A stretch of 36,252 nt of DNA from positions 1-36,252 of the forward strand of contig JAFDYG010000167.1 of NCBI GenBank assembly GCA_018267545.1, written 5' to 3'. Within the stretch, counting starts at the first letter, position 1, and each line of letters opens with the position of its first letter. Source of the DNA: Bacteroidota bacterium (GTDB lineage Bacteria > Bacteroidota > Bacteroidia > Chitinophagales > Chitinophagaceae). The position numbers and the translations under genes were made by a program. Shown piece by piece: positions 10,975 through 36,020 of the stretch. The notes under the pieces are model-generated. The model searched no databases and was not told the DNA's origin. It saw only the letters and a list, made by a program, of their open reading frames with translations.

Positions 10975-10988
10975 CGAAAACGTTTGCG
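10975..10988. promoter_or_regulatory. LacI-type operator-like site between kduD and the second LacI gene
   Basis: CGAAAACGTTTGCG is nearly symmetric around a central CG (AAAACG/CGTTT), the core form of LacI/PurR-family operators. It lies between the divergent kduD and LacI genes, directly before the 18-bp array. Autoregulation and control of kduD by the neighbouring LacI protein is the obvious inference. Confidence 0.5.
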
Positions 10989-11060
10989 GCCGCCGCCCAC
11001 AACGGCGCCGACGCCCACAACGGCGCCGCCGTCCTCAACGACGCCGACGCCCAATGCATC
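10989..11060. repeat. 18-bp tandem array upstream of the second LacI gene
   Basis: Four units in register: GCCGCCGCCCACAACGGC (10989), GCCGACGCCCACAACGGC (11007), GCCGCCGTCCTCAACGAC (11025) and GCCGACGCCCAATGCATC (11043), the last half-degenerate. The array ends 19 bp before the LacI ATG. Being a multiple of three it is open in the LacI frame. Confidence 0.88.
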
Positions 11061-11079
11061 CCGCCCAAAAGCCAAAGCA

Positions 11080-12117
11080 ATGAAATTTGAAGCCATCACC
11101 ATAAAAGACATTGCCAGGGCGCTCGACCTTTCCGTATCCACCGTCTCCAAAGCCCTGCGCGGCAGCCACGAAATCAGCGACGAGACCAAACGCCTCGTCC
11201 TTGCCTACGCCCGCGAGCACAACTATAAACCCAACCCCATCGCCCAAAGCCTGAAAAAAGGCCTCAGCAAATCCATCGGAGTCATCGTCTGTAATATCGA
11301 CAACAATTTCTTTTCCCAGGTCATCAACGGCATCGAATCCGTCGCCCGACAAAAGGACTACAACGTCATCATCACCCAAAGCCAGGAATCCTACGAACGC
11401 GAGGTCGCCAACAGCGAACACCTCTCCTCCCGCTCCGTCGACGGCCTGATCATCTCCCTATCGGCCGAAACCAAAAACGTCGACCACCTCATACGCCTCC
11501 ACCAAAAAGGCCTGCCCATCGTCTTTTTCGACCGGATCACCGACGAAATCCCCACCCACAAAGTCATCGCCAACAATTTCAAAGGCGCCTACGAAGCCAC
11601 CCGGCACCTCATACAGCAGGGCTTCCGGCACATCGCCCACATCACCAGCAGCAGCAGCCTTTCCATCACCCTCGAAAGATTCGAAGGCTACAAAAAAGCC
11701 CTCGAAGACGCCGGTCTCAAACCAGACCCGCGCTATACCAAGCTATGCCAGCACGGCGGCATGATCCCCGAAGAGACCCGCCAGGCCCTCACCGAGCTCT
11801 TGCAGTTAAACCCACAGCCCGACGCCATCTTTACCGCCAGCGACCGCCTGAGCACAACCACCCTTAGCCTGCTGCGAAAGATGCAGATTTCCGTTCCCGA
11901 TCAGATCGGCCTGGTCGGCTTCACCAACTCCATCTCCGCCGATATCTTCCACCCCGCCCTTACCTCCGTCGTTCAACCCGCCCTGGAAATGGGAACACTG
12001 TCGACCGAACTCCTCATCCAACTCATCGAAAGCAAACGACCCGTCACCGAATTCAAAAAGATCATTCTCGAAACAGACCTCAAAATCCGCGACTCCAGCC
12101 TGCGCATCAACCAGTAA
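11080..12117 (+). CDS. LacI-family transcriptional regulator (uronate side)
   Basis: Protein of 345 residues with an N-terminal helix-turn-helix (TIKDIARALDLSVSTVSKAL), hinge NYKPNPIAQSLKK and a sugar-binding-protein-like effector domain (SIGVIVCNIDNNFFSQ, FFDRITDEIP, GLVGFTNSISADIFHP). ATG at 11080 gives an N terminus equal to that of the first LacI protein (MKFEAITIKD against MKYEAITIKD). An in-frame TTG at 10984 would add 32 residues encoded by the 18-bp array, low-complexity Pro/Thr, and is judged unlikely. Divergent from kduD, so repression of the kdu operon, relieved by a uronate intermediate, is the likely role. It is a paralogue of the regulator at 6714-7745. Confidence 0.92.
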   Translation: MKFEAITIKDIARALDLSVSTVSKALRGSHEISDETKRLVLAYAREHNYKPNPIAQSLKKGLSKSIGVIVCNIDNNFFSQVINGIESVARQKDYNVIITQSQESYEREVANSEHLSSRSVDGLIISLSAETKNVDHLIRLHQKGLPIVFFDRITDEIPTHKVIANNFKGAYEATRHLIQQGFRHIAHITSSSSLSITLERFEGYKKALEDAGLKPDPRYTKLCQHGGMIPEETRQALTELLQLNPQPDAIFTASDRLSTTTLSLLRKMQISVPDQIGLVGFTNSISADIFHPALTSVVQPALEMGTLSTELLIQLIESKRPVTEFKKIILETDLKIRDSSLRINQ

Positions 12118-12208: not shown

Positions 12209-12604
12209 ATGTTGAAAAAGTGGATCTACATATTTACCCTTTTTTGTCTGGCTAACAGCCTGATAGCCTTCTATTCAGGCGACACCAGCACAGACCCCTC
12301 AGGCCAGCCGCAAGTAGCCGATATCGACTCGCGCGCCGGCTCCTCTACCCTGTTGGACCTCCTGATCGGCCAGATCCAAAACAACGACGAAGGAGAAGAC
12401 GGCAAAGCCCCCTTCAAAAGAGTCTTCCGTCACACCTATTCCATCGTCCGCAGCTTCGCCTTCAACGTCCAGATCCCCTTTCAAAGCGTCTTCAGCTTCT
12501 TCCGTATACCCGGCATCGTCCACCACGTCTACGGCAATCACCTGATCCGCAAACCCATCCTCCCCTCCTACTACAACTTCCTCTTCCGGCTAAGTCCATT
12601 CTGA
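12209..12604 (+). CDS. Small membrane-anchored or secreted hypothetical protein
   Basis: Protein of 131 residues that I do not recognise. Residues 5-22 (WIYIFTLFCLANSLIAFY) form one hydrophobic helix after two lysines, so it is a signal anchor or signal peptide. The middle (25-70) is Asp/Ser/Gly-rich with DLLIGQIQNNDEGEDG, and the C-terminal third is basic and aromatic (FKRVFRHTYSIVRSF, FRLSPF). A good promoter-like box upstream, normal codon use and the position 76 bp before the RND adaptor gene support a real gene, perhaps cotranscribed with the efflux system. Function unknown. Confidence 0.6.
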   Translation: MLKKWIYIFTLFCLANSLIAFYSGDTSTDPSGQPQVADIDSRAGSSTLLDLLIGQIQNNDEGEDGKAPFKRVFRHTYSIVRSFAFNVQIPFQSVFSFFRIPGIVHHVYGNHLIRKPILPSYYNFLFRLSPF

Positions 12605-12680: not shown

Positions 12681-13853
12681 ATGCTCAAACTTTTATCCAT
12701 CAACCTTGGGTTGATGATCGTTCTCATACTGTCACAAACAGCCTGCACATCTTACGGTCAACCCGAACGCCCCAGCGCAGATACACTCCAGCTGCCCGTA
12801 CTCACGCTTAAAGAACGCGATACGCTCCTTCAAACTCCCTACGTAGCCGATATCCAGGCCGTAAAGAATGTCGAAATCCGCACCCGCGTCAAAGGCTTCC
12901 TCGAAACCATCTTCGTGGACGAAGGCAAGCCCGTCAAAAAAGGACAACCCCTCTTCAAGATCAATGACGAAGAATACAAGGTCGCCCTCTCGAAGGCCAA
13001 AGCCGGACTCTCCAACGCCATCGCCGCGGCCAAGTCCTCCGAGGTAGAGGTCCAGCGCGTACAGATCCTGGTAAACAAACAGGTCGTCGCCGCCTCCGAG
13101 CTGGAAGTCGCACAGGCTAAATTAGCCGCCGACAACGCCAATATCGAAGAAGCCCGCGCCGCCGTCAAAAGCGCCGAAAATCACGTCTCCTATACCCTCC
13201 TTAGAGCCCCCTTCGACGGCATCATCGACCGCATCCCCCTAAAAGCAGGCAGCCTCATCGACGAAGGCGCCCTCCTCACCACCCTCTCCGACATCAGCTC
13301 GATGTATGCTTATTTCAGCATCCCCGAGAACGAATACCTCCAATACGAACGCAGCCGCACAGCTCTCAATAACCGCACAGCATCCGATAACCACAGCCCC
13401 CACGACAACCGCAGCAACGAAGTAAAACTCATCCTCGCCGACGGCAAACCCTACGCCTATCCCGGAAAGATCGAAACCGTCGAAGGCGAGATCGAACAAA
13501 ATACCGGCTCCATCGACTACCGCGCACGCTTCCCCAACCCACAGCAGCTCCTCAGACACGGCGCCACCGGCAAGCTCTATCTATCGAATAAAATCGAAAG
13601 AGTCCTCCTGGTCCCACAACAAGCCGTTTTCGATATCCAGGATAAAAGCTATGTGTATATCGTCAACAAGGACAATACCCTAAAAATGCGAAGCTTCACC
13701 CCCCTCACCCGGATAACCGGCTGCTACGTCGTCCGCGAAGGACTACACGCCGACGAAAATATCTTGTGTGAAGGCGCACAGAACGTACGCGAAGGAATGA
13801 CCATCCAACCACGACCCGTAACGGCAGACATGCTGCAGGCGGCAAAAAAATAA
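12681..13853 (+). CDS. RND efflux periplasmic adaptor (membrane fusion protein)
   Basis: Protein of 390 residues. The N terminus is a hydrophobic signal ending at a cysteine (LSQTAC22), a probable but not canonical lipobox (Gln at -3). The HlyD/AcrA order follows: lipoyl half-motif VEIRTRVKGFLETIFVDEGKPVKKGQPLF (shown in part; 64-92), an alpha-hairpin rich in Ala/Glu/Val (about 100-168), the second lipoyl half TLLRAPFDGIIDR (172-184), then beta-barrel and membrane-proximal domains. A short Asn/Arg/His-rich insert at about 227-248 is unusual. It links the pump to the outer-membrane channel in the periplasm. The next gene starts 4 bp after its stop codon, so translation is probably coupled. Confidence 0.92.
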   Translation: MLKLLSINLGLMIVLILSQTACTSYGQPERPSADTLQLPVLTLKERDTLLQTPYVADIQAVKNVEIRTRVKGFLETIFVDEGKPVKKGQPLFKINDEEYKVALSKAKAGLSNAIAAAKSSEVEVQRVQILVNKQVVAASELEVAQAKLAADNANIEEARAAVKSAENHVSYTLLRAPFDGIIDRIPLKAGSLIDEGALLTTLSDISSMYAYFSIPENEYLQYERSRTALNNRTASDNHSPHDNRSNEVKLILADGKPYAYPGKIETVEGEIEQNTGSIDYRARFPNPQQLLRHGATGKLYLSNKIERVLLVPQQAVFDIQDKSYVYIVNKDNTLKMRSFTPLTRITGCYVVREGLHADENILCEGAQNVREGMTIQPRPVTADMLQAAKK

Positions 13854-13857
13854 TCTC

Positions 13858-16800
13858 ATGTTGCAACTATTTATCAGGCGGCCCATTCTGTCGCTGGTGA
13901 TTTCTTTAATTATACTGTTACTGGGCGTACTGGCGCTCATCGGCCTCCCCGTTACCCAATTCCCCGACATCGTTCCCCCATCGGTGACCGTCACCGCCAA
14001 TTATACCGGCGCCAACGCCGAAGTCTGTACCAAGGCAGTCGCCACCCCGCTGGAACGCGCCATCAACGGCGTACCCGGCATGACGTATATGTCTACCGTC
14101 TGTAGCAACGACGGCCTGACCGTCATCACCATCAATTTCAACGTAGGCGTCGACCCGGACCAGGCCGCCGTCAGCGTCCAAAATCGCGTGGCCACTATCC
14201 TCGACGAAATGCCCGAAGAAGTAATCCGCGCCGGCGTCACCACCGAGAAAGAAGTCAATAGCATGCTCATGTATCTGAATATCATGAGCACCGACAGCAC
14301 TCTCGACGAAAAATTCATTTATAACTTCACGGACATCAATATCCTCCAGGAGCTAAAACGCATCAACGGCGTAGGCCGCGCCGAAATCATGGGCGCCAAG
14401 GAATACTCCATGCGCGTCTGGCTGAAACCCGACCGCATGGTCGCCTACCACGTCGCAACGGACGAGGTGATACAAGCCATCCGCGACCAAAATGTCGAAG
14501 CAGCCCCCGGTAAAACCGGCCAAAGCTCCGACCGCTCCCCCCAGCCTCTCCAATACGTCCTCCGCTACCCCGGCAAGTTCTTCGAACCCACCCAGTACGA
14601 AAACATCGTCATCCGCGCCGACAGCAGCGGTTCCATCCTCCGGCTCAAAGAAATAGCCGACATCGAGTTCGGAGCCCAGACCTACAGCATGGTGTCCAAA
14701 ACCGACGGCCAGCCCTCCGCCTCCATCCTGATCAAACAACGCCCCGGCAGCAACGCCCGCGACGTCATCAACGATATCAAAAAGAAAATGGCCGAGCTAA
14801 AAGGCACCTCCTTCCCTCCCGGGATGACCTATAATGTCAACTACGACGTGTCCCGCTTCCTCGACGCTTCCATCCACGAGGTCTTGAGAACCCTCGTCGA
14901 AGCCTTCATCCTCGTATTTATCGTCGTGTTTATCTTCTTACAGGATTTCCGCTCCACCCTGATCCCAGCCCTGGCCGTACCCGTCGCCCTCATCGGCACC
15001 TTCTTCTTTATGCAGATGCTCGGATTCTCGATCAACCTGCTGACGCTCTTTGCCCTCGTCCTGGCCATCGGCATCGTCGTCGACAACGCCATCGTCGTCG
15101 TCGAAGCAGTACACTATAAGATGACCGAAGAACACCTCAGCGCCATGGACGCTACTCTCAGCGCCATGAAGTCGATCAGCGGCGCCCTCGTCGCCATCAC
15201 CCTCGTGATGTCCGCCGTATTCCTGCCCGTCGCCTTTATGGAAGGCCCCGTAGGCGTATTCTATCGCCAGTTCTCTCTGACGCTCGCGATCTCCATCGTG
15301 ATCTCCGGTATCAACGCCCTCACCCTGACACCCGCCCTCTGCGCCATCCTGCTAAGACACGCAAAACCCGGAAAAAGGACCTTCCTCCAACGCCTCTTCT
15401 CCGGCTTCAACAAACGCTACGACAAGCTATCTAACGGCTACGTACGCCTCCTGCTGAGAATCGCCGGCAGAAAAGGGGTCACCGTGGCCCTGCTGCTCTT
15501 CTTCTTCCTGGCTACCTGGGGCTTTAGCGCCATTCTCCCCGGCGGCTTCATCCCAACCGAAGACCAGGGGATGATCTATGTCAACGTAACCACGCCACCC
15601 GGCTCCACCGTCGAACGCACCGAGCAGGTCCTGACTCAAGTCCAAAACGTAGCGTCCAAACTCGAAACCGTCGAATCCGTCTCCACCCTCGCCGGCTATA
15701 GCCTGGTGAACGAGGTTGCCGGCGCCTCCTACGGCATGGCCATGATCAATCTCAAACCATGGGGAAGCCGCAAATCGTCGCTAAACGAGGTCATCCGCGA
15801 GCTCGAAAGAAAAACCCGCGACGTCGGCGATGCGGCGATACAATATTTCCCGCCGCCCACCATCCCCGGCTTCGGTAACGCCAGCGGCTTCGAAATCCGC
15901 CTCCTCGACCGCTCCGGCTCGGACGATTTCCAAAAGACCGCAGCCGTCACCACCCAATTCATCGACGCTCTCAATAAAACTCCAGAAATCGCCGGCGCCT
16001 TCAGCACCTTCGACGCCAGCTTCCCACAATACCTCATCCACGTCGACCAGGCCGTCGCCGCCCAAAAAGGCATCACCATCGACAAAACCATGGAGACGCT
16101 CCAAACTCTCATGGGCAGCTATTACGCATCTAATTTCATTCGCTTCGGACAAATGTATAAAGTGATGGTACAAGCCTCACCCGAATTCCGGACCAAACCC
16201 GAAGACGTCCTCCGCCTGCACGTCAAAAACAATAAAGGAGAAATGGTGCCCCTCGGCACCTTTGTCCGTATGGAGAAGATCCACGGACCCGAACAGCTCA
16301 CCCGGTACAATATGTATACCTCCGCCATGATCACCGGCGACGCAGCCCCCGGCCATAGCAGCGGCGACGCCATCGCCGCCATCGCCCGTACCGGCAAGGA
16401 AAAGCTGCCCCGCGGCTATAGCTTCGACTGGTCAGGTATGACCCGCGAACAGATCCTCTCCGGCAACCAGGCCATTTTCATCTTTCTGATCTGTCTGCTC
16501 TTCGTCTATCTGCTCCTGGCAGCTCAATACGAAAGCTTCCTCCTGCCCCTGCCCGTGATCCTTTCTCTGCCTACAGGTATCTTCGGCGCCTTTTTCTTCC
16601 TGAAAATCGCCGGCCTCGAAAATAACATCTATGCCCAGGTAGCCCTCGTCATGCTGATCGGTCTGCTCGGGAAAAACGCCATCCTGATCGTGGAATTCGC
16701 TATCCAACATCAAAAGGCAGGAGCCTCGCCCCTTATGGCCGCCATCGAAGGGGCCAAAGAAAGACTAAGACCCATCCTGATGACCTCCCTGGCCTTCGTG

Positions 16801-18408
16801 GCCGGTCTGCTTCCCCTCTGCATCGCCGACGGTGCCGGCGCAATGGGCAACCGCAGCATCGGCACAGCCGCCGCCGGCGGGATGCTCTTCGGCACGATCT
16901 TCGGCCTCATCCTCGTCCCTGGCCTCTATGTGCTTTTTAGCAGCCTGGCCAAATCCAGCAAAAAAATCAAAACCGTCCCCGCACCGGCAATCGCCCTCAT
17001 CGCAATCATATTACTCGCCGCCAGCTGCAAAGCCCCGCAGGCTATAACCACTAAGCCCGTCACGACCACACTGCCGCAAACTTTCGATGGCAGCACCGAC
17101 ACCACGACAATCGCAGCTCTCCCGACCCGTCAGTTCTTCCCCGATCCCTACCTCCAACGGCTCATCGATACCGCGCTCGGCAGCAGCCCCGACATCCAAT
17201 CCGCCTACCAGCGGATCATGCTCGCCGCCGCCAATATGCGCTTCAACAAAGCCGCCCTCTATCCATCCGTCCAGGCCGGCGCAACAGCAGCCATCGATAA
17301 ATACGGCGATTATACAATGAATGGCGTCGGTAATCACGACACCAACAAATCACCCAACATCACCGATGACGAGCACATCCCCGACCCCACCCCCGACCTC
17401 TTCCTCGGCCTTCGCAGCCAATGGGAGATCGACCTCTGGGGTAAACTAAAAAACCGGAAGAAGGCCGCCGTCTCCCGCTGGCTCGCCAGCCAGGAAGGCT
17501 ACCACGTCGTCGTCACCATGCTCACCTCGGACATCGCCACGCTCTATTACCAATTGCTCGCCCTCGACAACGAACAAAAGGTCATTACGAAAAATATCCA
17601 GCTGCAGGAAAACGCCCTCCAGATCGTCAACGTCCAAAAAGAAGCCGGCAGGGCCACCGAGCTCGCGGTCCAACAGTTCCAGGCCCAGCTGATCCACACC
17701 CGAAGCCTCCGCTATACAACCGCCCAGCAGATCACCGAGACCGAGAATCAGCTGAACCTGCTCATCGGCCGGACCGGACAGACCATCCAACGCGACAGCT
17801 CCCTGCTCAAGCTTTCTCTGCCTACAGCCCTAAACGCCGGCCTGCCTTCACAGCTGCTCCTCAACCGGCCCGACATCCGCGCCGCCGAGCTTGAATTACA
17901 AGCCCTCAACGCCGATATAAAAGCCGCAAGAGCCGCCTTCTTCCCCACCCTGACCCTCAACCCCTATGTCGGCTTCAATGCCTTCAAACCAGGCCTCCTC
18001 TTCAACTCCGGTTCTTTCGCATACGGCGCCGCCGCCGGCCTGATGGCCCCCATCTTTAATAGAAACGCTATCAAAGCCGACTACGAACGCACCATCGCCG
18101 AAGGCAAAATTGCCCTCTACGACTACCAGCGAACGGTCCTCACCGGCTTCCAGGAAGTCACCAATAGCCTCAAAGGCATCCGCAACTTCACGGACTATTT
18201 TGAATTGAAACAACAGGAAGCAGCCTCCCTAAATAACGCCGTGGGAGTAGCCAACGACCTCTACCGCGTAGGCCGGGCCACCTACCTGGAAGTCATCACA
18301 GCACAACGCAACGTGCTGGACGCCGAGCTCGAAGTAAATGCGGCAAAAAAGAATATTTTCCTCCAAACGATCAATCTCTACCGCGGAGTGGGCGGCGGCT
18401 GGCGTTAA
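13858..18408 (+). CDS. RND efflux permease fused to outer-membrane factor lipoprotein
   Basis: A single frame of 1516 codons. Residues 1-1040 are a complete HAE1/AcrB-type pump: TM1 at 8-28, GMTYMST, the TM4 motif VVDNAIVVVE with D409 and N410 in place of the usual Asp-Asp pair, TM10 GKNAILIVEFA with K939, and the last helix GLYVLFSSL. Then comes a basic stretch (KSSKKIK, 1032-1038), a hydrophobic segment (1042-1055) and AASC1057, a lipobox. Residues 1057-1516 form a complete NodT/OprM-type outer-membrane factor with two repeats (WEIDLWGKLKNRKKAA, RPDIRAAELELQ, GRATYLEVITAQRNVLDAE). So one gene encodes both ends of the tripartite pump, with the adaptor just upstream. Topology fits cleavage by signal peptidase II inside the polyprotein. 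Substrate unknown. Frame and codon use stay continuous across the junction, so a sequencing error is unlikely. Confidence 0.93.
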   Translation: MLQLFIRRPILSLVISLIILLLGVLALIGLPVTQFPDIVPPSVTVTANYTGANAEVCTKAVATPLERAINGVPGMTYMSTVCSNDGLTVITINFNVGVDPDQAAVSVQNRVATILDEMPEEVIRAGVTTEKEVNSMLMYLNIMSTDSTLDEKFIYNFTDINILQELKRINGVGRAEIMGAKEYSMRVWLKPDRMVAYHVATDEVIQAIRDQNVEAAPGKTGQSSDRSPQPLQYVLRYPGKFFEPTQYENIVIRADSSGSILRLKEIADIEFGAQTYSMVSKTDGQPSASILIKQRPGSNARDVINDIKKKMAELKGTSFPPGMTYNVNYDVSRFLDASIHEVLRTLVEAFILVFIVVFIFLQDFRSTLIPALAVPVALIGTFFFMQMLGFSINLLTLFALVLAIGIVVDNAIVVVEAVHYKMTEEHLSAMDATLSAMKSISGALVAITLVMSAVFLPVAFMEGPVGVFYRQFSLTLAISIVISGINALTLTPALCAILLRHAKPGKRTFLQRLFSGFNKRYDKLSNGYVRLLLRIAGRKGVTVALLLFFFLATWGFSAILPGGFIPTEDQGMIYVNVTTPPGSTVERTEQVLTQVQNVASKLETVESVSTLAGYSLVNEVAGASYGMAMINLKPWGSRKSSLNEVIRELERKTRDVGDAAIQYFPPPTIPGFGNASGFEIRLLDRSGSDDFQKTAAVTTQFIDALNKTPEIAGAFSTFDASFPQYLIHVDQAVAAQKGITIDKTMETLQTLMGSYYASNFIRFGQMYKVMVQASPEFRTKPEDVLRLHVKNNKGEMVPLGTFVRMEKIHGPEQLTRYNMYTSAMITGDAAPGHSSGDAIAAIARTGKEKLPRGYSFDWSGMTREQILSGNQAIFIFLICLLFVYLLLAAQYESFLLPLPVILSLPTGIFGAFFFLKIAGLENNIYAQVALVMLIGLLGKNAILIVEFAIQHQKAGASPLMAAIEGAKERLRPILMTSLAFVAGLLPLCIADGAGAMGNRSIGTAAAGGMLFGTIFGLILVPGLYVLFSSLAKSSKKIKTVPAPAIALIAIILLAASCKAPQAITTKPVTTTLPQTFDGSTDTTTIAALPTRQFFPDPYLQRLIDTALGSSPDIQSAYQRIMLAAANMRFNKAALYPSVQAGATAAIDKYGDYTMNGVGNHDTNKSPNITDDEHIPDPTPDLFLGLRSQWEIDLWGKLKNRKKAAVSRWLASQEGYHVVVTMLTSDIATLYYQLLALDNEQKVITKNIQLQENALQIVNVQKEAGRATELAVQQFQAQLIHTRSLRYTTAQQITETENQLNLLIGRTGQTIQRDSSLLKLSLPTALNAGLPSQLLLNRPDIRAAELELQALNADIKAARAAFFPTLTLNPYVGFNAFKPGLLFNSGSFAYGAAAGLMAPIFNRNAIKADYERTIAEGKIALYDYQRTVLTGFQEVTNSLKGIRNFTDYFELKQQEAASLNNAVGVANDLYRVGRATYLEVITAQRNVLDAELEVNAAKKNIFLQTINLYRGVGGGWR

Positions 18409-27327: not shown

Positions 27328-29481
27328 CTATCTTCCCCCCCCGGGACAATGCTCCCGGAGATAGCTCGTAAATAAATGCGATAAGTGCAGCGACGTACCC
27401 TCACCCTCGCTGATGGCATGCGTCCTGTTCGGATACACCATGATCTGGAACTTCCGGTCATTCTTGACGAGCTCATTAATCAACATTTCAGTCCCTTGAT
27501 AATGTACGTTATCATCCCCCGTACCATGGACGATCAAAAGATTACCCCTCAGGTTCTTCGCATGCGCCAAAGGCGAACCATTCACAAAGTCTTCCCTATT
27601 CTCCTGGGGCAGTCCCATATACCGTTCCTGGTAGATATTATCGTATAAAAGCTGATTCGCCACCGGCGCAATCGCAATCCCCGTCTTATAAATCTCCGGA
27701 TACTGGAACAGCAGGTTCAACGTCGTAGACCCGCCGCCGCTCCATCCATGCACCGCAATCCGGCTCGTATCCACATACTTCCATTGCATGATTTTCCTGG
27801 CAGCCATCGCCTGGTCCCGGATATTGATGATGCCGATCTTCCGGTAGATGGACTTCCTCCAGGCAGCGCCCTTCGGCGAAGGCGTACCCCGCCCGTCGAG
27901 ACTGATCTGGATATATCCATCCGCCGCAATATCCCCGGCATAAAGTCTCGTCCCAGCCCCGCCAGCAACATCCTTCACCGTCGCCGAAGCAGGCTCCGTA
28001 TACACCATAAATAGGACAGGGTACTTCTTCGTGCTGTCGAAATCTTTCGGCAGAACCATCCATCCATCCAGCGTAACATTGTCGTCCGTCGTCACCTGGA
28101 ACATCGTGACCGGATAACGGGGCCCGCGGCCTCCTCCGCCCATAGCCGGATTCACTTTAATCGACGTATGCTTGGGCAGCGAGACCCACTCCGACACCGA
28201 CTCGAACAAATGATTCGAAAAATTATGGGTAGCAAACTGCGCCCCGGGAGACACACTATAATTATGCGTCCCCTTCTGACCCGCCGGCGACACCAGCTGC
28301 AGCGTCCCCTTCCCATCCAACGGAACCCGGTACAGATAAGCCTGTGTAGCATTATCCGGCGAAGCCGTAAAATAAACATAGCCCCCCTTTTCATCCACCG
28401 CGCTGCTCCGAATCATATCATAATTTCCCTTGGTCAGCAAAGTCTCCTTCTTCCCATCCCGGCTCATGCGGTAGATATGCCGCCAGCCATCCTTCTCGCT
28501 CACCCAAAGGAATTCCTTCCCGCCATTCAGCCAGTCCCAGCCATCGATGCCGTCACTCCAACGCCCCTTGACGTCTATCCAGGCATTGTCGTTTTCTTTA
28601 TAGATCTCCGTCGCAGCGCCCGTCCCCGCATTGCAAATAAAAATCTTTGCCTCGTTCTGCTTCCGGTTCAGCTGCTCCAGGATAACCTCTGTGCTATTGT
28701 CCGCCCATTCCATCCGCGGAATATAGTGCTGACGGCTATCCCCCGGCACCTGCATCCATACAGTCTTCGCCGTAGCAATGTCGACTACCCCTACCTTGGT
28801 AGGCGAAGGGTCTTCACCAGCTTTCGGATACTCGACCGGGATTGTAAAAGGATACAAAGAATCCGTATTGTCGATCATCAGGAAATTCCGGATTTTATTC
28901 GCATCCAGCTGCCAATAAGCGATCCGCTTGCTGTCCGGGCTCCAGCGAAAGCCGTCCCGGCAGCCGAACTCCTCTTCATAAGCCCAGTCGAACGTCCCGT
29001 TGATCATACGAAAAGTTCCATCCGTCGTCAAAGGGCTGATCGCCCCCGAAGCCAGATCTTCTACATATACATTGTGCTCGCTGACATAAGCCGCCTTCGT
29101 CCCATCCGGCGATAATTTCGCAAACATCAGGGAAGAAGCCGGACGGCCCTTGCCCAGCTGCTTCAGGCTATGCGAGGCAACGTCCAGCACCCAATAATCC
29201 CCCCGGGTATTCGCCCTCCATACCTTCTTGCTATTCGTATAAATCAACACCGTCTTGCCATCCTCACTAAACGAGTAGCCCTGCACAGCCATCGACTTGA
29301 AGTCTGCCGCCTGGACCACAGTCGTCTTCTGAAAAGCAGGCAGGTCATAGCGAACGATACTCCCCTCTTCCAGCGCATAATACCCCTTCCCATCCTTCGT
29401 CCACTTGACACCCCCGCCGCCTCTTTGCGCAAAAACAGAACCCGAAATCAATAAAAAAACAATCGCAGATAATATTCTCAT
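27328..29481 (-). CDS. Dipeptidyl peptidase IV-type S9 peptidase
   Basis: Protein of 717 residues with a signal peptide (MRILSAIVFLLISGSVFAQ). The DPP4 N-terminal beta-propeller (about 30-440) contains DWAYEEEF at 165-172, the paired-glutamate motif that holds the free N terminus of the substrate in true DPP4 enzymes. The hydrolase domain has S581 (GWSGGG), D656/D657 (GTGDDNVH) and H688 (NRTHAI). So it should release X-Pro or X-Ala dipeptides from peptides in the periplasm. It is the last gene of the susC-susD-M1-DPP4 operon, 11 bp after the M1 gene. A run of eight C (27335-27342) sits at its extreme 3' end. Confidence 0.93.
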   Translation of the reverse strand: MRILSAIVFLLISGSVFAQRGGGGVKWTKDGKGYYALEEGSIVRYDLPAFQKTTVVQAADFKSMAVQGYSFSEDGKTVLIYTNSKKVWRANTRGDYWVLDVASHSLKQLGKGRPASSLMFAKLSPDGTKAAYVSEHNVYVEDLASGAISPLTTDGTFRMINGTFDWAYEEEFGCRDGFRWSPDSKRIAYWQLDANKIRNFLMIDNTDSLYPFTIPVEYPKAGEDPSPTKVGVVDIATAKTVWMQVPGDSRQHYIPRMEWADNSTEVILEQLNRKQNEAKIFICNAGTGAATEIYKENDNAWIDVKGRWSDGIDGWDWLNGGKEFLWVSEKDGWRHIYRMSRDGKKETLLTKGNYDMIRSSAVDEKGGYVYFTASPDNATQAYLYRVPLDGKGTLQLVSPAGQKGTHNYSVSPGAQFATHNFSNHLFESVSEWVSLPKHTSIKVNPAMGGGGRGPRYPVTMFQVTTDDNVTLDGWMVLPKDFDSTKKYPVLFMVYTEPASATVKDVAGGAGTRLYAGDIAADGYIQISLDGRGTPSPKGAAWRKSIYRKIGIINIRDQAMAARKIMQWKYVDTSRIAVHGWSGGGSTTLNLLFQYPEIYKTGIAIAPVANQLLYDNIYQERYMGLPQENREDFVNGSPLAHAKNLRGNLLIVHGTGDDNVHYQGTEMLINELVKNDRKFQIMVYPNRTHAISEGEGTSLHLSHLFTSYLREHCPGGGR

Positions 29482-29492
29482 AGCAAAAAATA

Positions 29493-31256
29493 TTAGTGTG
29501 AAGCATTAGCTTTCACCCCAATGTAATACATATTTTTGATACCCTCTTCCGTAAACAGCGCCACCTCATCCCCCTTCAGATCCGTCGTCTTCCAGGTAGT
29601 GGTCGGTACGATCTTCACCCGGGCCTTGTCATTTTTCAGCACCATCGGCAGATTGAACCCATCCACTGCATTCGCATACCGGTACGTCACTTTCTTCTTG
29701 TCATCGCTGAAGTAGTATTCGAAGTCCGGAATCTGCGTCGTCCGCAGGTACTGATCGAATACCTTCTGGTAGTCGAACCCGGCCTTTTCTGAAACATAAT
29801 GCTCTACCTGCTGCGTCGTAACCGTCTGATGATAGAAATCTTTCTGCAGCCCCCTTATGATCGAACGGAATTTCTCGTCGTCATCGATGCCATGCCGCAT
29901 AGACTGCAGCATACAGCCCGATTTGGGATACATGTCTCCGCTGCCCTGCTCGTTGACATTGTAACGGGGGATGATCGGCCGGTCATTGCGGATCCCGCGG
30001 CGCGTAGCAATATTGTACTCATTGCCCGCTTCCTTCCCCCACATAAAATCCGTGAAAAGGGTTTCGCTGTAGTTGGTAAATCCCTCATGAACCCACATAT
30101 CGGCCAAATCCTTCGTCGTCAAATTATTTCCGAACCACTCGTGACCGCTTTCATGGATAATGATAAAGTCATACATCATCCCATATTTCGAACCGCGGCC
30201 GCGATAGCCGAATGCATAGCTGTTGCCATACGCCACAGCGCTCTGATGCTCCATCCCCGTATGCTGTACGTCCACCAGCTTATAGCTGTCCTCATAGAAA
30301 GGATAGGGTCCCATCCAGTGCTCGAAAGCATGCAGCATATTATGAACCTGCTCGGGCATATAGCTTTTGGCCTTCGCTAAGTTATAATCCAGCACCCAGT
30401 AGTCCAGGTCCAGATGTCCCTTCTCACCCTGGAAATCCTCGTGAAAGGTCACATACTTACCGATATATGGAATCAGACAGTAATTGCTGATCGGATTGAC
30501 CACGCCCCACTTATAGGTCGTCGTCCCATCCCCATTTACCTTCTTGGACTGCATCCGGCCATTCGAAACCGCCACCAGCGAATCCGGAACAGTCATCGTC
30601 ACCGAACCACCCTTGTCCGGCTCGTCATACTGCAGGTCTTTACAGGGGTACCAGAGCGAAGCGCCCATCCCCTGGCAGGTCACCGTCATCCAGGGACGGC
30701 CGAGCGAATCCTTTGCAAAGGTCCAGCCCCCGCTCCACGGCGGACGAGTGCTTTCATGTGGCACACCGGAGAAATAAGCCTGCACTGTATTGATGCTGCC
30801 TACCTTCTGCTTGGGCGTCTTGACGTGCCATACATTCCCTTCCCTGGTGAACGGAAGCCGCTCTTTCCCATTGAAGATAACGCTGTCGATATGCAACGGC
30901 TCCTGCAGGTCCAGCTGCATCCCGGGCTGATTGTCGCTGATAACTTTATAGGTAATCAGGTCGTTGCCCGGCGCCATCTTGGCCAGGAAATCCGGCTTGA
31001 CCGTAATATCGTAACGCTGGACATCCCACCAGGCCCGCTCGGGCGTAACACTGCCCCGCAGCGTATCGGCATGCGTAAATACTTTGTGCTTATACTCTTC
31101 GGAGGCCTGCGCTACCATCCGGGCACGCTGCGCGCGGACGCTGTCAGGATTGGGCTGTTGCTGCGCCTGGGCAAAAGCTGGTCCCAGCAGGGATACTACC
31201 GCCAATCCCCGCAAACAGAATTGGACTCCATTCAATTTCGATCTGAGTGTGCTCAT
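29493..31256 (-). CDS. Secreted M1-family metallo-aminopeptidase
   Basis: Protein of 587 residues, signal peptide about 1-31 (LAVVSLLGPAFAQAQ). The M1 catalytic site is HESGH at 368-372 with the third zinc ligand E391 in WVHEGFTNYSE, i.e. HExxH-18-E. The exopeptidase motif GxMEN appears as GMEHQ (334-338), with His in place of Asn. It is shorter than the classical 850-residue aminopeptidase N and lacks the large C-terminal helical domain, as is common for Bacteroidota M1 proteins. It should trim N-terminal residues from imported peptides in the periplasm. It lies 15 bp after susD and 11 bp before the DPP4 gene, in one operon. Confidence 0.92.
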   Translation of the reverse strand: MSTLRSKLNGVQFCLRGLAVVSLLGPAFAQAQQQPNPDSVRAQRARMVAQASEEYKHKVFTHADTLRGSVTPERAWWDVQRYDITVKPDFLAKMAPGNDLITYKVISDNQPGMQLDLQEPLHIDSVIFNGKERLPFTREGNVWHVKTPKQKVGSINTVQAYFSGVPHESTRPPWSGGWTFAKDSLGRPWMTVTCQGMGASLWYPCKDLQYDEPDKGGSVTMTVPDSLVAVSNGRMQSKKVNGDGTTTYKWGVVNPISNYCLIPYIGKYVTFHEDFQGEKGHLDLDYWVLDYNLAKAKSYMPEQVHNMLHAFEHWMGPYPFYEDSYKLVDVQHTGMEHQSAVAYGNSYAFGYRGRGSKYGMMYDFIIIHESGHEWFGNNLTTKDLADMWVHEGFTNYSETLFTDFMWGKEAGNEYNIATRRGIRNDRPIIPRYNVNEQGSGDMYPKSGCMLQSMRHGIDDDEKFRSIIRGLQKDFYHQTVTTQQVEHYVSEKAGFDYQKVFDQYLRTTQIPDFEYYFSDDKKKVTYRYANAVDGFNLPMVLKNDKARVKIVPTTTWKTTDLKGDEVALFTEEGIKNMYYIGVKANASH

Positions 31257-31271
31257 ATTGTAATATACAAA

Positions 31272-32717
31272 TTATTGCATCCAAAAAAGTTTGGTCGTCA
31301 CGTCATCCGACGTACCACCACTATTCGCCTTCACAGCCGCCGCCCAGTTGATAGGATTGGCGCTCTGCTCCGTCGTCGGATAGTAGAACCGCTTCGGCAG
31401 TATCGTAATCGCACCGACGGGCGGGCTGATCGCATCGATATTGGGCTGCTTCAGCCGGCGAATGCTCGTCCACGCATCCCAGCCGCGATTGGCAAACGCA
31501 ATCCACTGCTGCCAGCCGATCTTTTGCTTGTAGTCGCCGGCCGCCGTAGCATAAGCCACCGTCGGCTGTGCCAGATAAGTCGTAGCATCCGAAGCGCTGC
31601 CGCCCCAGAAGGTGATGGAAGCCGTAACGGCATTGTTGTAGTGGCCTGCAGCCGTACCGCCCACATTAAAGCCCCTCTCTACCGCTTCAGCCAGCAAAAA
31701 TTCCGTCTCCGAATAATCCAGCATATCGTCGGCAAACGTAGTAGTCTGCCAGGCGGCCGAGAACTGCGACAAGTCGCTGTAGGAATTACCACCACCTGCA
31801 ACACCACCCTTATAGGTGCCATCCGTAGCTTTTTTGAAATAAAGCGGAAGACGGGGGTCGCTCCAGGTTTTCATCGTATTGACCAGCAGCTCCGCCGGAC
31901 AAAAGTCATTGCGACCACTATTAACCAGCGACTGCCAGATCGGATTGGTATTCCCCGTAGGGCTTGCCTGATACGCAAAAAGCGCATTGTCGGTATTCGA
32001 CGTAAAGACACCCGTAGATACCGCCTCTTCTACCTTTTTCTTGGCCGTAGCCGCATCCACATCCGCCAGCACCATCGCCATCTTCAGCTTCATCGTAGCG
32101 GCAAACTTCTTCCAGGAAGCCGTATTGCCCTTGTAAAGCTGATCGACCGTGCCGATCGAACCGGCGCTCGTATTCAAACCGGCAATACAAGTATCCAGCC
32201 GGGTCAGCAGATCCATATACACCGTCTTGGCATCGTCATATTTCGGAAAAGGAATCGACCGGTTTTCGGCCTCCGAGTAAGGGATATTCCCATAGGTCGA
32301 TACCAGCAGATTGTACGTGTAAATCATCATGATATCGGTGATGATCAGATCATTCTTCAACAAAGCCGGGTCGCTGACATTGGCAGGGAACAGCGTCTTG
32401 GCATTCGTCATGTTGTTCAGTACGGTGCTGTACATCTGGTTCCACCAGCCATTCGGAGAGTTGTACTGGGAAAGGACGTACCGCGCCTCCGTCGTATACG
32501 TCGTCGCGGTCCAGCTTTGCGCAAACTGCCGGAAAGGATTATAGGAACCCGATACCGAAGTATAATAATCCGAAAGATTCTTCTGCCCATACAGGAACAG
32601 GCTGGTAGGCGGCACATTCAAAGCCCCCTTCGAGTTCACATTATAGTCGGTGATATTCTTCTTACACGAAGCGAACATCAGCAGCACCGGAGAAAATATT
32701 ATCAGTAGTTTTTTCAT
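31272..32717 (-). CDS. SusD/RagB-family nutrient-binding outer-membrane lipoprotein
   Basis: Protein of 481 residues with a lipoprotein signal MKKLLIIFSPVLLMFASC (Cys18). It has features of the SusD-like-2 group: a TPR-like helical half and motifs such as STYGNIPYSEA, GNTASWKKFAATMKLKMA and SDPRLPLYF. It forms the lid of the SusC channel at the cell surface and binds the substrate. ATG at 32717 is preferred; an ATG seven codons upstream would spoil the signal peptide. It follows susC by 24 bp. Together with the downstream peptidases it resembles RagAB-type peptide importers rather than glycan importers. Confidence 0.93.
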   Translation of the reverse strand: MKKLLIIFSPVLLMFASCKKNITDYNVNSKGALNVPPTSLFLYGQKNLSDYYTSVSGSYNPFRQFAQSWTATTYTTEARYVLSQYNSPNGWWNQMYSTVLNNMTNAKTLFPANVSDPALLKNDLIITDIMMIYTYNLLVSTYGNIPYSEAENRSIPFPKYDDAKTVYMDLLTRLDTCIAGLNTSAGSIGTVDQLYKGNTASWKKFAATMKLKMAMVLADVDAATAKKKVEEAVSTGVFTSNTDNALFAYQASPTGNTNPIWQSLVNSGRNDFCPAELLVNTMKTWSDPRLPLYFKKATDGTYKGGVAGGGNSYSDLSQFSAAWQTTTFADDMLDYSETEFLLAEAVERGFNVGGTAAGHYNNAVTASITFWGGSASDATTYLAQPTVAYATAAGDYKQKIGWQQWIAFANRGWDAWTSIRRLKQPNIDAISPPVGAITILPKRFYYPTTEQSANPINWAAAVKANSGGTSDDVTTKLFWMQ

Positions 32718-32741
32718 TGCTTGAAGTTTTAGGTACATTCC

Positions 32742-35700
32742 TTAGAACTTTACTTTCAAATTGAATCCAAAGGTCCTGAATACAGGATACGCACCGGACT
32801 GGAAACCGATAGACCCGTTCTGACCGGCCGTACCATTGTTGGCAACGCCCTGCTCAGGGTCCGAATACGGCAGGTTCTTGTGGATGATCCAAAGATTCTT
32901 CCCTGTAAGGGATACCTCGACACCCTTTACATAAGAGAACTTATCCATGATGCTCTTCGGCAGGCTATATGCCAGCGTCAGCTCGCGAAGCTTAACATAG
33001 CTCGCGTCATAGACATAGGTCTGTGCCGTTTCGGAGTAGATCGAGCTGAAGGTAAACAAGCCTTTGCTGAAGTCCGACATGTCTACCCTCGTCGTATTCT
33101 TCTTCCCATCAGGGTTGACACCTTCGAAGATCATCCCGCCGCCGCTCGCCAGGGAACCGCGGACATCACCGCCGGCCGAATTCTTACCCGCCGTATGCGG
33201 AGTCAGACCACCCGACGCGCCATAGTCCAGGTCGAGAGAATATACCTGACCACCCTGTCTTACATCGACCAGGAAGCTCAGCGAAAGGTTCTTGTAGGTG
33301 AAGGTATTGTTGATACCCCCCATCCAGTCGGCGTTCGTATTGCCGATATCTACCAGGCCGGATGCCTTTGTATAAGCGCCCGTAGTAGCATTGATCACCG
33401 GCTGCCCGTTCAGATACGTATATCCGCTGCCCCGCAGTACCCCCGTCGACTTGCCGGCCTCGGCCACCAGCTGCACAGAGTTCTGGAAGCTCGTGATGAT
33501 ATAGGAAGGCTGATTATTATAGAGCGACACGACCTTATTCCTGTTCCGCGACCAGTTGATGTCCATATTCCACATAAAGGCCTTCGTCTTGACAGGCATG
33601 AAGTGCAAGGTCGCTTCTATACCTTTGTTCAGGATCGTACCCCCATTCACATAGAACTGGGAATACCCGCTGGCGCTGGAAGTCGTAATAGGCATAATCT
33701 GGTTGTCCGACCTGGCATTGTAATACGTTACGTCCAGCGCAATCCGGTTATTCCAGAAAGCCAGCTCCGTACCCACTTCCCAGGTATGGTTCTTTTCAGG
33801 CTGAAGATTCGGGTTATTGTTCGTAGTCGGTGACGAGAAGACCGTCGAACCGTTGAAAGGCGTACCGCCCGTGTAGGTGTTCTGCAAGCTGAATACAGGC
33901 GCATCACCGCCTACCGACGCATAGTTGGCCCTCAATTTACCGAAGGAAAGCCAGCTCACGTCCAGCAGCTTGGAGAAAGCCCAGCTCCCCGATACCGCCG
34001 GATAGTAGTAGCCATTCTTCCCGCTCGGCAGGGTCGAAGACTTATCCCGGCGCAACGTTCCATCCAAAGTAACCATATCCTTCCAGGTGATCGTAGCGCC
34101 GCCGAAGACACCATCCACTTCTTTAGTAGAAGACGTTTCGCTCGGAGCCGTCAGCGTGTTGACCGAATTGGCCAGCGCATAATACCTCGGAACCACCAGC
34201 CCCCCGTTTGTGGAAGCATTGATGCTCTGGTTTACGCTCTGACGGATATTACCACCCAGCAGCGCCTTTACATTGAAATCAGTCCCTACATTCTTGTCGA
34301 AATTCAACAGCACATCGTAGTTCGTTTCCTGGTAGGAGGAGTTGATCCGGCCATAGCTCGGCGTACCCGCGCTGCCCACGGCATATCGGGTTTCGACCAG
34401 CTGGTTCCAGTTATCGATCGCCACCCGGCCCATCAAGCTCAAAAAGGAGGTGATCTTATAGTTCAGATTGACATTACCGAAGTAACGAGTCCTGGAATCC
34501 GTCTCGAAATTCTCATACCGTACCCAATACAGGTTATCGTGATAGGCCGGCTTGACTACACCCGCGGGACCATTCTGCAGATAAGCCGTCTGAGCCCAGT
34601 TCCAGTTATTGTTCAGCTTTCCATTGAAATAGTCCGCCTTCTGCGCGTCGATATCCACGTTCGTCTGCCACCACTGACGGAAGTCGGTCATGGGGTTGAT
34701 CTGCGTACCGTTACCACCGCCATAGCCATAACCATAACGACCGACACCCGCGATATCGGAATAGTTGATCTGGCCGCCCAGCGACAGTCTATCCGTCAGG
34801 TTGAAGGTACTCGAGAAGTTCAATAAACTCTTGGTCTGGCTGCTGTTGGGCAGATAGCCATTGTCCACCGAACGGGTGTAACCCATCCGGAACGTGGACT
34901 TGTCACTTCCACCATCCGCGCTGACGCTGGTGATCGTAGATACCGGCGTCACGAAATAGTCCTCGGGACGATGATGCTTGGCCGGCATCCAGGGAGTAGC
35001 CTTCCCGAAATTGGGGTCGCCCGGCGAAAACGCATCCCAGTTGTATACCATCAGGCTGGGGTCATAACGCGGCCCCGTCGCCTGATCCGCATCCGTCTGG
35101 ACAATCACCACGGGCGTAGCGCTAAAAGAAGTAGGTTTATAATAAAAGAAAGGACTCGGCGTGCCAGGGTCCTTCCCCTGACCGCCAAGACCCTGGCCAT
35201 ATTCTTCCTGGTACTGCGGCAGCGTGCTCTTGTCGGGCGTACCCACGGTCACGCCAAAGCTGGCCGTAACGCCGATTCCCTTCCGCTTGGAACCCTTCTT
35301 CGTGGTGATCAGAATGACGCCGTTCGAACCCCGCGAGCCATAAAGAGCGGACGCAGCCGCACCTTTCAGCACGCTCATATTTTCGATATCATCCGGATTC
35401 AGGTCGGAAATGGCATTTCCCAGGTCATACTTGCCGCTGGCCTGATTCGTATTGTCATAAGGCACCCCATCTACGACAAATAGCGCCTGGTTATTCTGCG
35501 TCAACGATTTCACGCCTCTTAAAATGACATTGTTCGAGCCGCCCATCGCATTGCTCGAAGTCACCTGCAACCCGGCGATCTTCCCGGACAGATTGTCGAC
35601 GAAGTTCGAAGAAGGCGTCTTGTTGATGTCCGCACCCGTAATCTGCTGCGTCGCATAGGGCGTAGCATTTCGCGTCCTGCGGATGCCAAGCGCCGTAACC

Positions 35701-36020
35701 ACCACCTCGTTCAACGCCTGCGAAGACCTTTTTAATAGAATAGAGATGTTGTCCTGACCGCCGACGCGGATTTCCTGGCTTTCAAAACCGATATTGCTGA
35801 CAAGCAGCACATCTGCCGATCCGGCCGAGATTTGAAAGCTTCCGTTCTCTTGTGTGGAAACGCCCGATTTCGAAGACTTTAATCGTACAGTGACGTTGGG
35901 AATGGGTAACCCAGCTGAATCGATCACCTTACCGGTGATGGTCCTTTTTTGCGCCTGGGCGTCGAGACATAGCAGGAAAGCCATGACGATGCCTAACGCA
36001 TGGAAGAGATGTTTTCTCAT
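32742..36020 (-). CDS. SusC/RagA-family TonB-linked outer-membrane transporter
   Basis: Protein of 1092 residues. Signal peptide (ALGIVMAFLLCLDAQAQ, cleavage near residue 24), a carboxypeptidase-regulatory-like domain (about 26-105), a TonB-box region NEVVVTALGI, the plug (about 118-240) with the SusC signature GSRGSNGVILITTKKG, and a 22-strand beta-barrel ending in FNLKVKF, the typical C-terminal outer-membrane motif with a final Phe. It is the first gene of the operon with susD, M1 and DPP4 genes. It imports a substrate held by SusD, powered by TonB; the peptidases downstream point to oligopeptides. No sigma/anti-sigma pair is next to it. Confidence 0.95.
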   Translation of the reverse strand: MRKHLFHALGIVMAFLLCLDAQAQKRTITGKVIDSAGLPIPNVTVRLKSSKSGVSTQENGSFQISAGSADVLLVSNIGFESQEIRVGGQDNISILLKRSSQALNEVVVTALGIRRTRNATPYATQQITGADINKTPSSNFVDNLSGKIAGLQVTSSNAMGGSNNVILRGVKSLTQNNQALFVVDGVPYDNTNQASGKYDLGNAISDLNPDDIENMSVLKGAAASALYGSRGSNGVILITTKKGSKRKGIGVTASFGVTVGTPDKSTLPQYQEEYGQGLGGQGKDPGTPSPFFYYKPTSFSATPVVIVQTDADQATGPRYDPSLMVYNWDAFSPGDPNFGKATPWMPAKHHRPEDYFVTPVSTITSVSADGGSDKSTFRMGYTRSVDNGYLPNSSQTKSLLNFSSTFNLTDRLSLGGQINYSDIAGVGRYGYGYGGGNGTQINPMTDFRQWWQTNVDIDAQKADYFNGKLNNNWNWAQTAYLQNGPAGVVKPAYHDNLYWVRYENFETDSRTRYFGNVNLNYKITSFLSLMGRVAIDNWNQLVETRYAVGSAGTPSYGRINSSYQETNYDVLLNFDKNVGTDFNVKALLGGNIRQSVNQSINASTNGGLVVPRYYALANSVNTLTAPSETSSTKEVDGVFGGATITWKDMVTLDGTLRRDKSSTLPSGKNGYYYPAVSGSWAFSKLLDVSWLSFGKLRANYASVGGDAPVFSLQNTYTGGTPFNGSTVFSSPTTNNNPNLQPEKNHTWEVGTELAFWNNRIALDVTYYNARSDNQIMPITTSSASGYSQFYVNGGTILNKGIEATLHFMPVKTKAFMWNMDINWSRNRNKVVSLYNNQPSYIITSFQNSVQLVAEAGKSTGVLRGSGYTYLNGQPVINATTGAYTKASGLVDIGNTNADWMGGINNTFTYKNLSLSFLVDVRQGGQVYSLDLDYGASGGLTPHTAGKNSAGGDVRGSLASGGGMIFEGVNPDGKKNTTRVDMSDFSKGLFTFSSIYSETAQTYVYDASYVKLRELTLAYSLPKSIMDKFSYVKGVEVSLTGKNLWIIHKNLPYSDPEQGVANNGTAGQNGSIGFQSGAYPVFRTFGFNLKVKF

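Follow-up and report, generated by a model that had tools for sequence, protein, structure and literature searches.

A Bacteroidota gene joining an RND permease to its outer membrane channel across a putative internal lipoprotein signal peptide

An assembled RND efflux pump consists of three permeases, three channels, and six adaptors, and the C-terminus of the permease lies inside the cell. In the closest described systems, which are MexB/OprM-like and occur in Mucilaginibacter, Dyadobacter, Hymenobacter, and some Chitinophaga, an HAE1-type permease and a NodT-type lipoprotein channel are encoded by separate genes. The locus described here has the same order of adaptor, permease, and channel, and its channel is homologous to the separate ones along the whole length, with the lipobox cysteine aligned, but in the separate systems a stop codon and a new start lie between the two genes and the permease tail is charged. 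The CusA/CzcA plus TolC-like fusions of about 1450 residues, named 'CusA/CzcA family heavy metal efflux RND transporter', resemble our locus in being one gene with a basic and hydrophobic joint; they differ in belonging to RND family TIGR00914 and in having a signal peptidase I type A/G-Q joint without a lipobox. The nearest precedent known to us is fbcH of Bradyrhizobium japonicum, which encodes cytochrome b/c1, a polytopic and an exported protein, in one chain that is cut after an internal signal sequence. The likeness lies in the single chain and the cut internal signal, whereas the proteins are unrelated to those of an efflux pump, the cutting is of the signal peptidase I type, and there is no lipidation.

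We know of no bacterial case of a cut internal lipobox. Among the titles and abstract openings listed in a search that covered few subscription journals, no paper describes a natural permease-channel fusion or an internal lipobox, and the passages at hand from PMC8277102, PMC11213822, PMC10434189, and PMC5837995 mention no natural permease-channel fusion. According to the abstract of PMC13082787, many TolC homologues bear an N-terminal lipid, and the usual lipoprotein route, as a passage of PMC5837995 describes it, runs via Lgt and then Lsp.

The fused gene and its operon

The window, by which we mean the whole stretch of 36,252 nucleotides that was analysed, is contig C74 of a 7.3-Mb assembly in 553 contigs that is 94.7% complete. 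An ATG opens a single frame of 1516 amino acids, and the features that matter for the argument are as follows.

12681..13853, + strand: periplasmic adaptor (membrane fusion protein), 390 aa (TIGR01730 RND_mfp, HlyD_D23)
13858..18408, + strand: fused gene, RND permease and outer membrane channel, 1516 codons and stop
13858..16938, + strand: HAE1/AcrB-type RND permease, residues 1-1027 (PF00873, 1024 bits)
16930..16932, + strand: GTG codon 1025, a possible but unsupported internal start (from the sequence)
16951..16971, + strand: basic n-region K1032-K1038 (from the sequence; basic residues lie here in other fused joints too)
16981..17022, + strand: hydrophobic h-region, residues 1042-1055, 14 residues (predicted helix)
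17017..17028, + strand: putative lipobox A1054-A1055-S1056-C1057 (Cys invariant in the alignment)
17026..18405, + strand: predicted mature NodT/OprM-type channel, residues 1057-1516 (TIGR01845, phmmer, Foldseek, structure model)

A sequence-only reading of this DNA had described a continuous frame of 1516 codons containing a full pump and a full channel, and reading of the frame together with Pfam and NCBIfam searches confirms it. The Pfam model ACR_tran spans residues 1-1027 with 1024 bits and is covered from position 1 to 1020 of its 1021 positions. The RND permease model TIGR00915 scores 1064 bits over residues 1-1036 against a cut-off of 940, which places the permease in the HAE1 family. 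Among the other NCBIfam models, the narrower NF000282 is narrowly missed (1205 versus 1250 bits), and the CusA/CzcA-type TIGR00914 scores 356 bits against a cut-off of 701. In the channel part, OEP scores 145 bits over two stretches, the best being 1330-1509, and TIGR01845 assigns residues 1074-1514 to the NodT-type outer membrane subunits with 261 bits (cut-off 210). The top PDB matches of the permease part are RND efflux pumps, e.g., 7wlv, CmeB, MexB, and AcrB, and the best 60 of 98 PDB matches, judged by name, length, and matched part, include no fusion. OprM is the top phmmer match of the channel part in the PDB (1.7e-46), and a model of residues 1021-1516 built from 60 sequences, with a pLDDT of 86.3, has OprM 3d5k as its top Foldseek match (E 5.9e-22).

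The adaptor gene stops 4 bases upstream of the fused gene on the same strand and scores 253.8 bits with TIGR01730 RND_mfp against a cut-off of 94.9, so the putative operon encodes the adaptor of a tripartite RND efflux system as well. The adaptor N-terminus, LILSQTAC, is itself lipoprotein-like. Directly upstream of the adaptor, at 12209-12604 (+), is a 131-aa open reading frame with an N-terminal hydrophobic stretch and no match in Pfam or NCBIfam. A LacI-type regulator gene lies upstream of the efflux operon at 10984-12117 (+) and may serve sugar genes on the opposite strand instead. Farther along, at 27328-36020 (-), genes for a TonB-dependent receptor, a SusD-like lipoprotein, an M1 peptidase, and an S9 peptidase stand in series, a row that looks like a peptide-uptake SusCD locus.

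The joint in fused and separate loci

We compared the locus with the best 80 of 576 relatives, each of which covers nearly all of residues 1-1516. Of these, 29 have a single gene of 1514-1561 aa and 50 have two adjacent genes, always permease then channel, while one (L121) was set aside with a disrupted permease frame and a separate channel frame; because only the best matches were kept, the ratio of 29 to 50 is not a prevalence. L119 (1054 + 481 aa) is counted as split, and so is L087, which has a channel frame of just 295 aa and was excluded from the channel joint sets and alignments. Within these best 80, fused loci occur in Flavitalea and other Chitinophagaceae, some Chitinophaga, Olivibacter, Pedobacter, and Sphingobacterium, one of them on the complete chromosome of Sphingobacterium sp. 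CZ-2, and separate genes occur in Mucilaginibacter, Dyadobacter, Hymenobacter, other Chitinophaga, Cytophagales, and two methanotrophs, among others.

A search of 58 genomes identified orthologs in five other genomes of the same genus, with 74-83% identity, and in each of them the frame runs open through the joint. In G277 the contig ends inside the channel, at residue 1456, and in G269 one frame matches in two pieces, with 79% identity to residue 1078 and 64% beyond. In G279 and G280, which are of the same family but other genera, the best-matching permease is closed by a stop codon of its own, after 1061 and 1043 aa respectively. The earlier reading had named related strains with two separate genes as an observation that would speak against it. 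Such strains do exist in other genera, but since the orthologs found within the genus are also fused, the split genes elsewhere do not refute the fusion. The length of an open frame was not a usable sign of fusion on its own, as several frames of about 1550 codons turned out, when read, to be ordinary permeases of 1050-1071 aa.

The joint itself has the elements that the same reading had placed there, i.e., the basic stretch from K1032 to K1038, the hydrophobic segment 1042-1055, and A-A-S-C1057. In the structure model, residues 1042-1055 are exactly one helix (helix 22-35 of the model), which ends just before S1056-C1057. By the positive-inside rule, K1032-K1038 would be on the cytoplasmic side. 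The joint thus looks like a lipoprotein precursor signal, with a basic n-region, an h-region, and a [GAS]C lipobox, as do the other fused joints, although the signal occupies residues 1032-1056 and not the N-terminus of the translated protein. The predicted signal peptidase II cut falls between 17025 and 17026 (S1056/C1057).

Beyond the last helix of the permease, all 36 fused HAE1 joints that were read have a basic run, a hydrophobic run, and then a Cys after Gly, Ala, or Ser. Thirty-one of these were taken by script and five by reading (L194 and L229-L232); the genus orthologs L195-L198 were not recounted because their joints are identical to those of L054, L083, L061, and L080, nor was L136, whose joint equals that of L126. 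The script picked the Cys by requiring a preceding Gly, Ala, or Ser, but the lipobox Cys is the sole Cys of the joint in 30 of the 31 scripted joints, so the rule had no freedom in those 30. As a control, 565 of 4674 windows of 45 aa elsewhere in the fused proteins (12%) contain any Cys. On an alignment of 60 of the 78 available channel sequences, the Cys is invariant in 27/27 fused and 33/33 separate channels, and the positions around it vary. Separate channels have a Cys after Gly, Ala, or Ser near the start in 46 of 48, picked by that same rule, and in the other two, L105 and L111, His or Gln precedes the Cys.

The run free of D, E, K, R, N, Q, and H before the Cys is of similar length in both, with a median of 13 in fused joints (n=31) versus 12 in separate channels (n=48), and a Gln at -2 cuts it to 1 in three fused joints. 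From the Cys to the first invariant channel residue, the median is 39 residues in fused proteins (n=27, range 36-69) versus 36 in separate ones (n=33), a difference with p = 4e-7 if relatedness is ignored. The window's own linker, measured between alignment positions C37 and F74, is 36 residues and is also the minimum of the 27.

Repeated change between fused and split, and a second family of fusions

On a FastTree permease tree of 80 rows, the fused label has to change three times, and well-supported branches force each of these changes; for this tree the fused rows were cut at residue 1030, or at 1055 in five longer proteins, where some joint residues were left. For the 79 rows of the channel tree, four changes are required, three of them forced. 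IQ-TREE on 44 of the 80 rows agrees, and a topology with a single fused clade fails the AU test (delta lnL 190, p-AU 2.9e-7). A wider permease tree of 138 rows, 36 of them fused, needs eight changes, six forced; it was built on the C-terminal half of the permease, and some of its rows are partial. The fusion is thus gained or lost repeatedly, and we claim repeated change and not an exact number of fusions because a count of three could also arise from a single gain plus two losses.

A second HAE1 pump of the genus brings this to a fine scale, as it is encoded by two genes in the window's own genome (L234) and in G277 (L233) and by one gene in G269 (L230) and G275 (L231, truncated at its start). 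The permeases of L230 and L234 share 81% identity and their channels 76%, and the junctions read ...FILIVGLGSC-KVSKDTATPQ in the fused L230 versus ...LLLGLGAC-KVSKDTATPQ in the separate L234. This pump is the freshest fused/split case.

L229 (G107:C56) is a distant HAE1 permease-channel fusion of 37% identity, with its own lipobox AFSSC and a very long branch on the tree. The split HAE1 operons L107 and L118 come from Methylococcaceae methanotrophs and group with Sporocytophaga among Bacteroidota, which suggests transfer between phyla. L133, on a contig of an Azovibrio MAG, also groups with Bacteroidota permeases, through transfer or because the contig is mis-binned.

The sequence-only reading had guessed that fusions of this kind might already be known in Bacteroidota, and for the CusA/CzcA type this holds well, as they are common and annotated as single genes. 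By hand count, a near-full-length, stop-free match to the CusA/CzcA fusion is present in 108 or more of the 247 genomes from the class. In public annotation, RUNSL_RS28305 on a Runella plasmid and HALHY_RS33085 on a Haliscomenobacter plasmid are each a single CDS named after the pump. Among the best 60 plasmid records, 34 are matched in one piece over at least 98% of the length, and 33 of these carry only the CusA/CzcA-type name, the remaining one being unannotated. Further down the list, the genes are separate on plasmids of Variovorax and Thauera, and they include one for an adaptor.

The window's own genome holds such a protein as its second permease-channel fusion (L006, G000:C396:22267-26610, - strand, 1448 aa), and its joint, KASA followed by Q, is signal peptidase I-like. 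We read 30 CusA/CzcA joints, the own genome's and those of 29 relatives (two of which, L189 and L190, are alike at the joint), and all 30 have Ala/Gly-Gln at the end of the hydrophobic stretch and no lipobox. The dipeptide sits 24-56 residues past a P-x-x-Y motif, and the windows of L192 and L193 hold two candidates each. As a control, [A/G]-Q occurs in 929 of 4949 windows of the same length, against 30/30 joints.

In Bacteroidetes, as a passage of PMC5837995 puts it, most signal peptidase I substrates expose Gln after cleavage (the "Q-rule"). Because a Q-rule site is retained inside the fused protein, we infer that this residue becomes an N-terminus. Each lineage seems to keep the signal that its channel had before fusion, which is expected if the chain is cut and not if the joint is a relic. 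The earlier proposal of an internal lipoprotein signal peptide in the window is therefore strongly supported by comparison: the Cys is kept in 36/36 joints, fused and split states change repeatedly on the tree, and a different fusion family keeps a signal peptidase I site in its place.

From one chain to two proteins

Probably, the cell makes pump and channel as one chain and then cuts it in two. For the window, we consider it very probable, judging from the joint and its relatives, that the product is a polyprotein cut by signal peptidase II at C1057. The RND permease would insert as a 12-helix protein with its C-terminus in the cytoplasm. Since a joint that is first basic and then hydrophobic follows that cytoplasmic end, the next segment would cross outward and could act as a signal peptide. 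Residues 1042-1055, which would be the channel's old lipoprotein signal peptide, would thus cross the membrane as a thirteenth segment with the basic side in, carrying the channel part into the periplasm. Lgt would then add a diacylglyceryl group to C1057, Lsp would cleave between S1056 and C1057, and the acylated channel would move to the outer membrane. Unless trimmed, the signal peptide would stay at the C-terminus of the pump as an additional, thirteenth helix. Insertion topology, acylation, cutting, sorting, and the fate of the extra helix are all inferred.

The gene for signal peptidase II, lspA, is present in the window's own genome. No lgt was found in this assembly with TIGR00544 or PF01790, which is likely an assembly gap because PF01790 finds a match in 24 of 25 searched genomes of the genus and misses only this one. 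Both parts would be synthesised 1:1, with the adaptor remaining a separate gene. The 1:1 amounts proposed earlier hold for synthesis because there is one open frame. With three permeases, three channels, and six adaptors in the pump, the parts that are joined are those needed 1:1, which may be the advantage of the arrangement.

Four other explanations of the fused frame have to be weighed against cutting at C1057. A merger of two genes by an assembly or sequencing error would be natural to suspect in a draft of 553 contigs, but the same joint is unbroken in 29 other one-gene loci, including one on a complete chromosome, and it is open in the five relatives from the genus (four of these have joints already counted among the 29); on these grounds we reject an error, the chance of which is negligible. 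It is very unlikely that translation starts anew inside the gene and yields the channel separately, with a signal peptide of its own. The start would be GTG1025 in the window, 32 codons ahead of C1057 and the only in-frame ATG, GTG, or TTG in the preceding 45 codons, and 29 of 32 fused genes do have such a codon 15-45 codons upstream of the Cys, with two or more basic residues after it. The candidate positions are not conserved, however, and three of the 32 genes have no usable codon (L061 has none, and in L063 and L091 the sole candidate is a GTG that follows most of the basic run). A usable ATG is present in just 17 of 32 fused genes versus an ATG opening 42 of 48 separate channels, taking the first start mechanically, and GTG1025 is explained as the valine codon of the PGLYV motif with which the permease ends.

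The chain might also stay uncut, as one polypeptide across both membranes in which 1042-1055 serves as a genuine thirteenth transmembrane helix and C1057 is a relic. The continuous frame agrees with this, and with three copies of each part per pump, one can picture three single chains forming a trimer. The fused linker is moreover slightly longer (by the medians given above), which also counts against the cutting view, as cutting does not require extra length. A relic Cys should nevertheless decay over such divergence, yet it is kept in every fused joint read, and the CusA/CzcA set keeps the site of another peptidase just as strictly. A 39-residue linker would also extend to at most about 140 A, which we judge too short to reach from the inner membrane to the core of an assembled channel, and we regard an uncut chain as very improbable. 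More improbable still is that another protease cuts in the linker, or that cut and uncut forms coexist with different jobs; some fused linkers are indeed longer, up to 69 residues in L080, but what stays invariant in the joint is the lipobox Cys, and the linker beyond it varies.

Cutting at the former signal peptide of the channel would apply to both families of fusion. It is likely that Bacteroidota repeatedly turn envelope-spanning efflux pumps into polyproteins that are cut by the channel's former signal peptidase, II at the lipobox of the HAE1 type and I at the Q-rule site of the CusA/CzcA type, and that the permease is left with thirteen helices and a periplasmic C-terminus. If the chains are cut, these genes would encode natural bacterial polyproteins whose processing is left to housekeeping signal peptidases, in the HAE1 type to signal peptidase II acting at an internal lipobox, and signal peptides would not need to be N-terminal. 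Cutting would also give a natural route to 1:1 pump parts, and many "RND pump" annotations in Bacteroidota would hide the source of an unannotated outer membrane channel as well.
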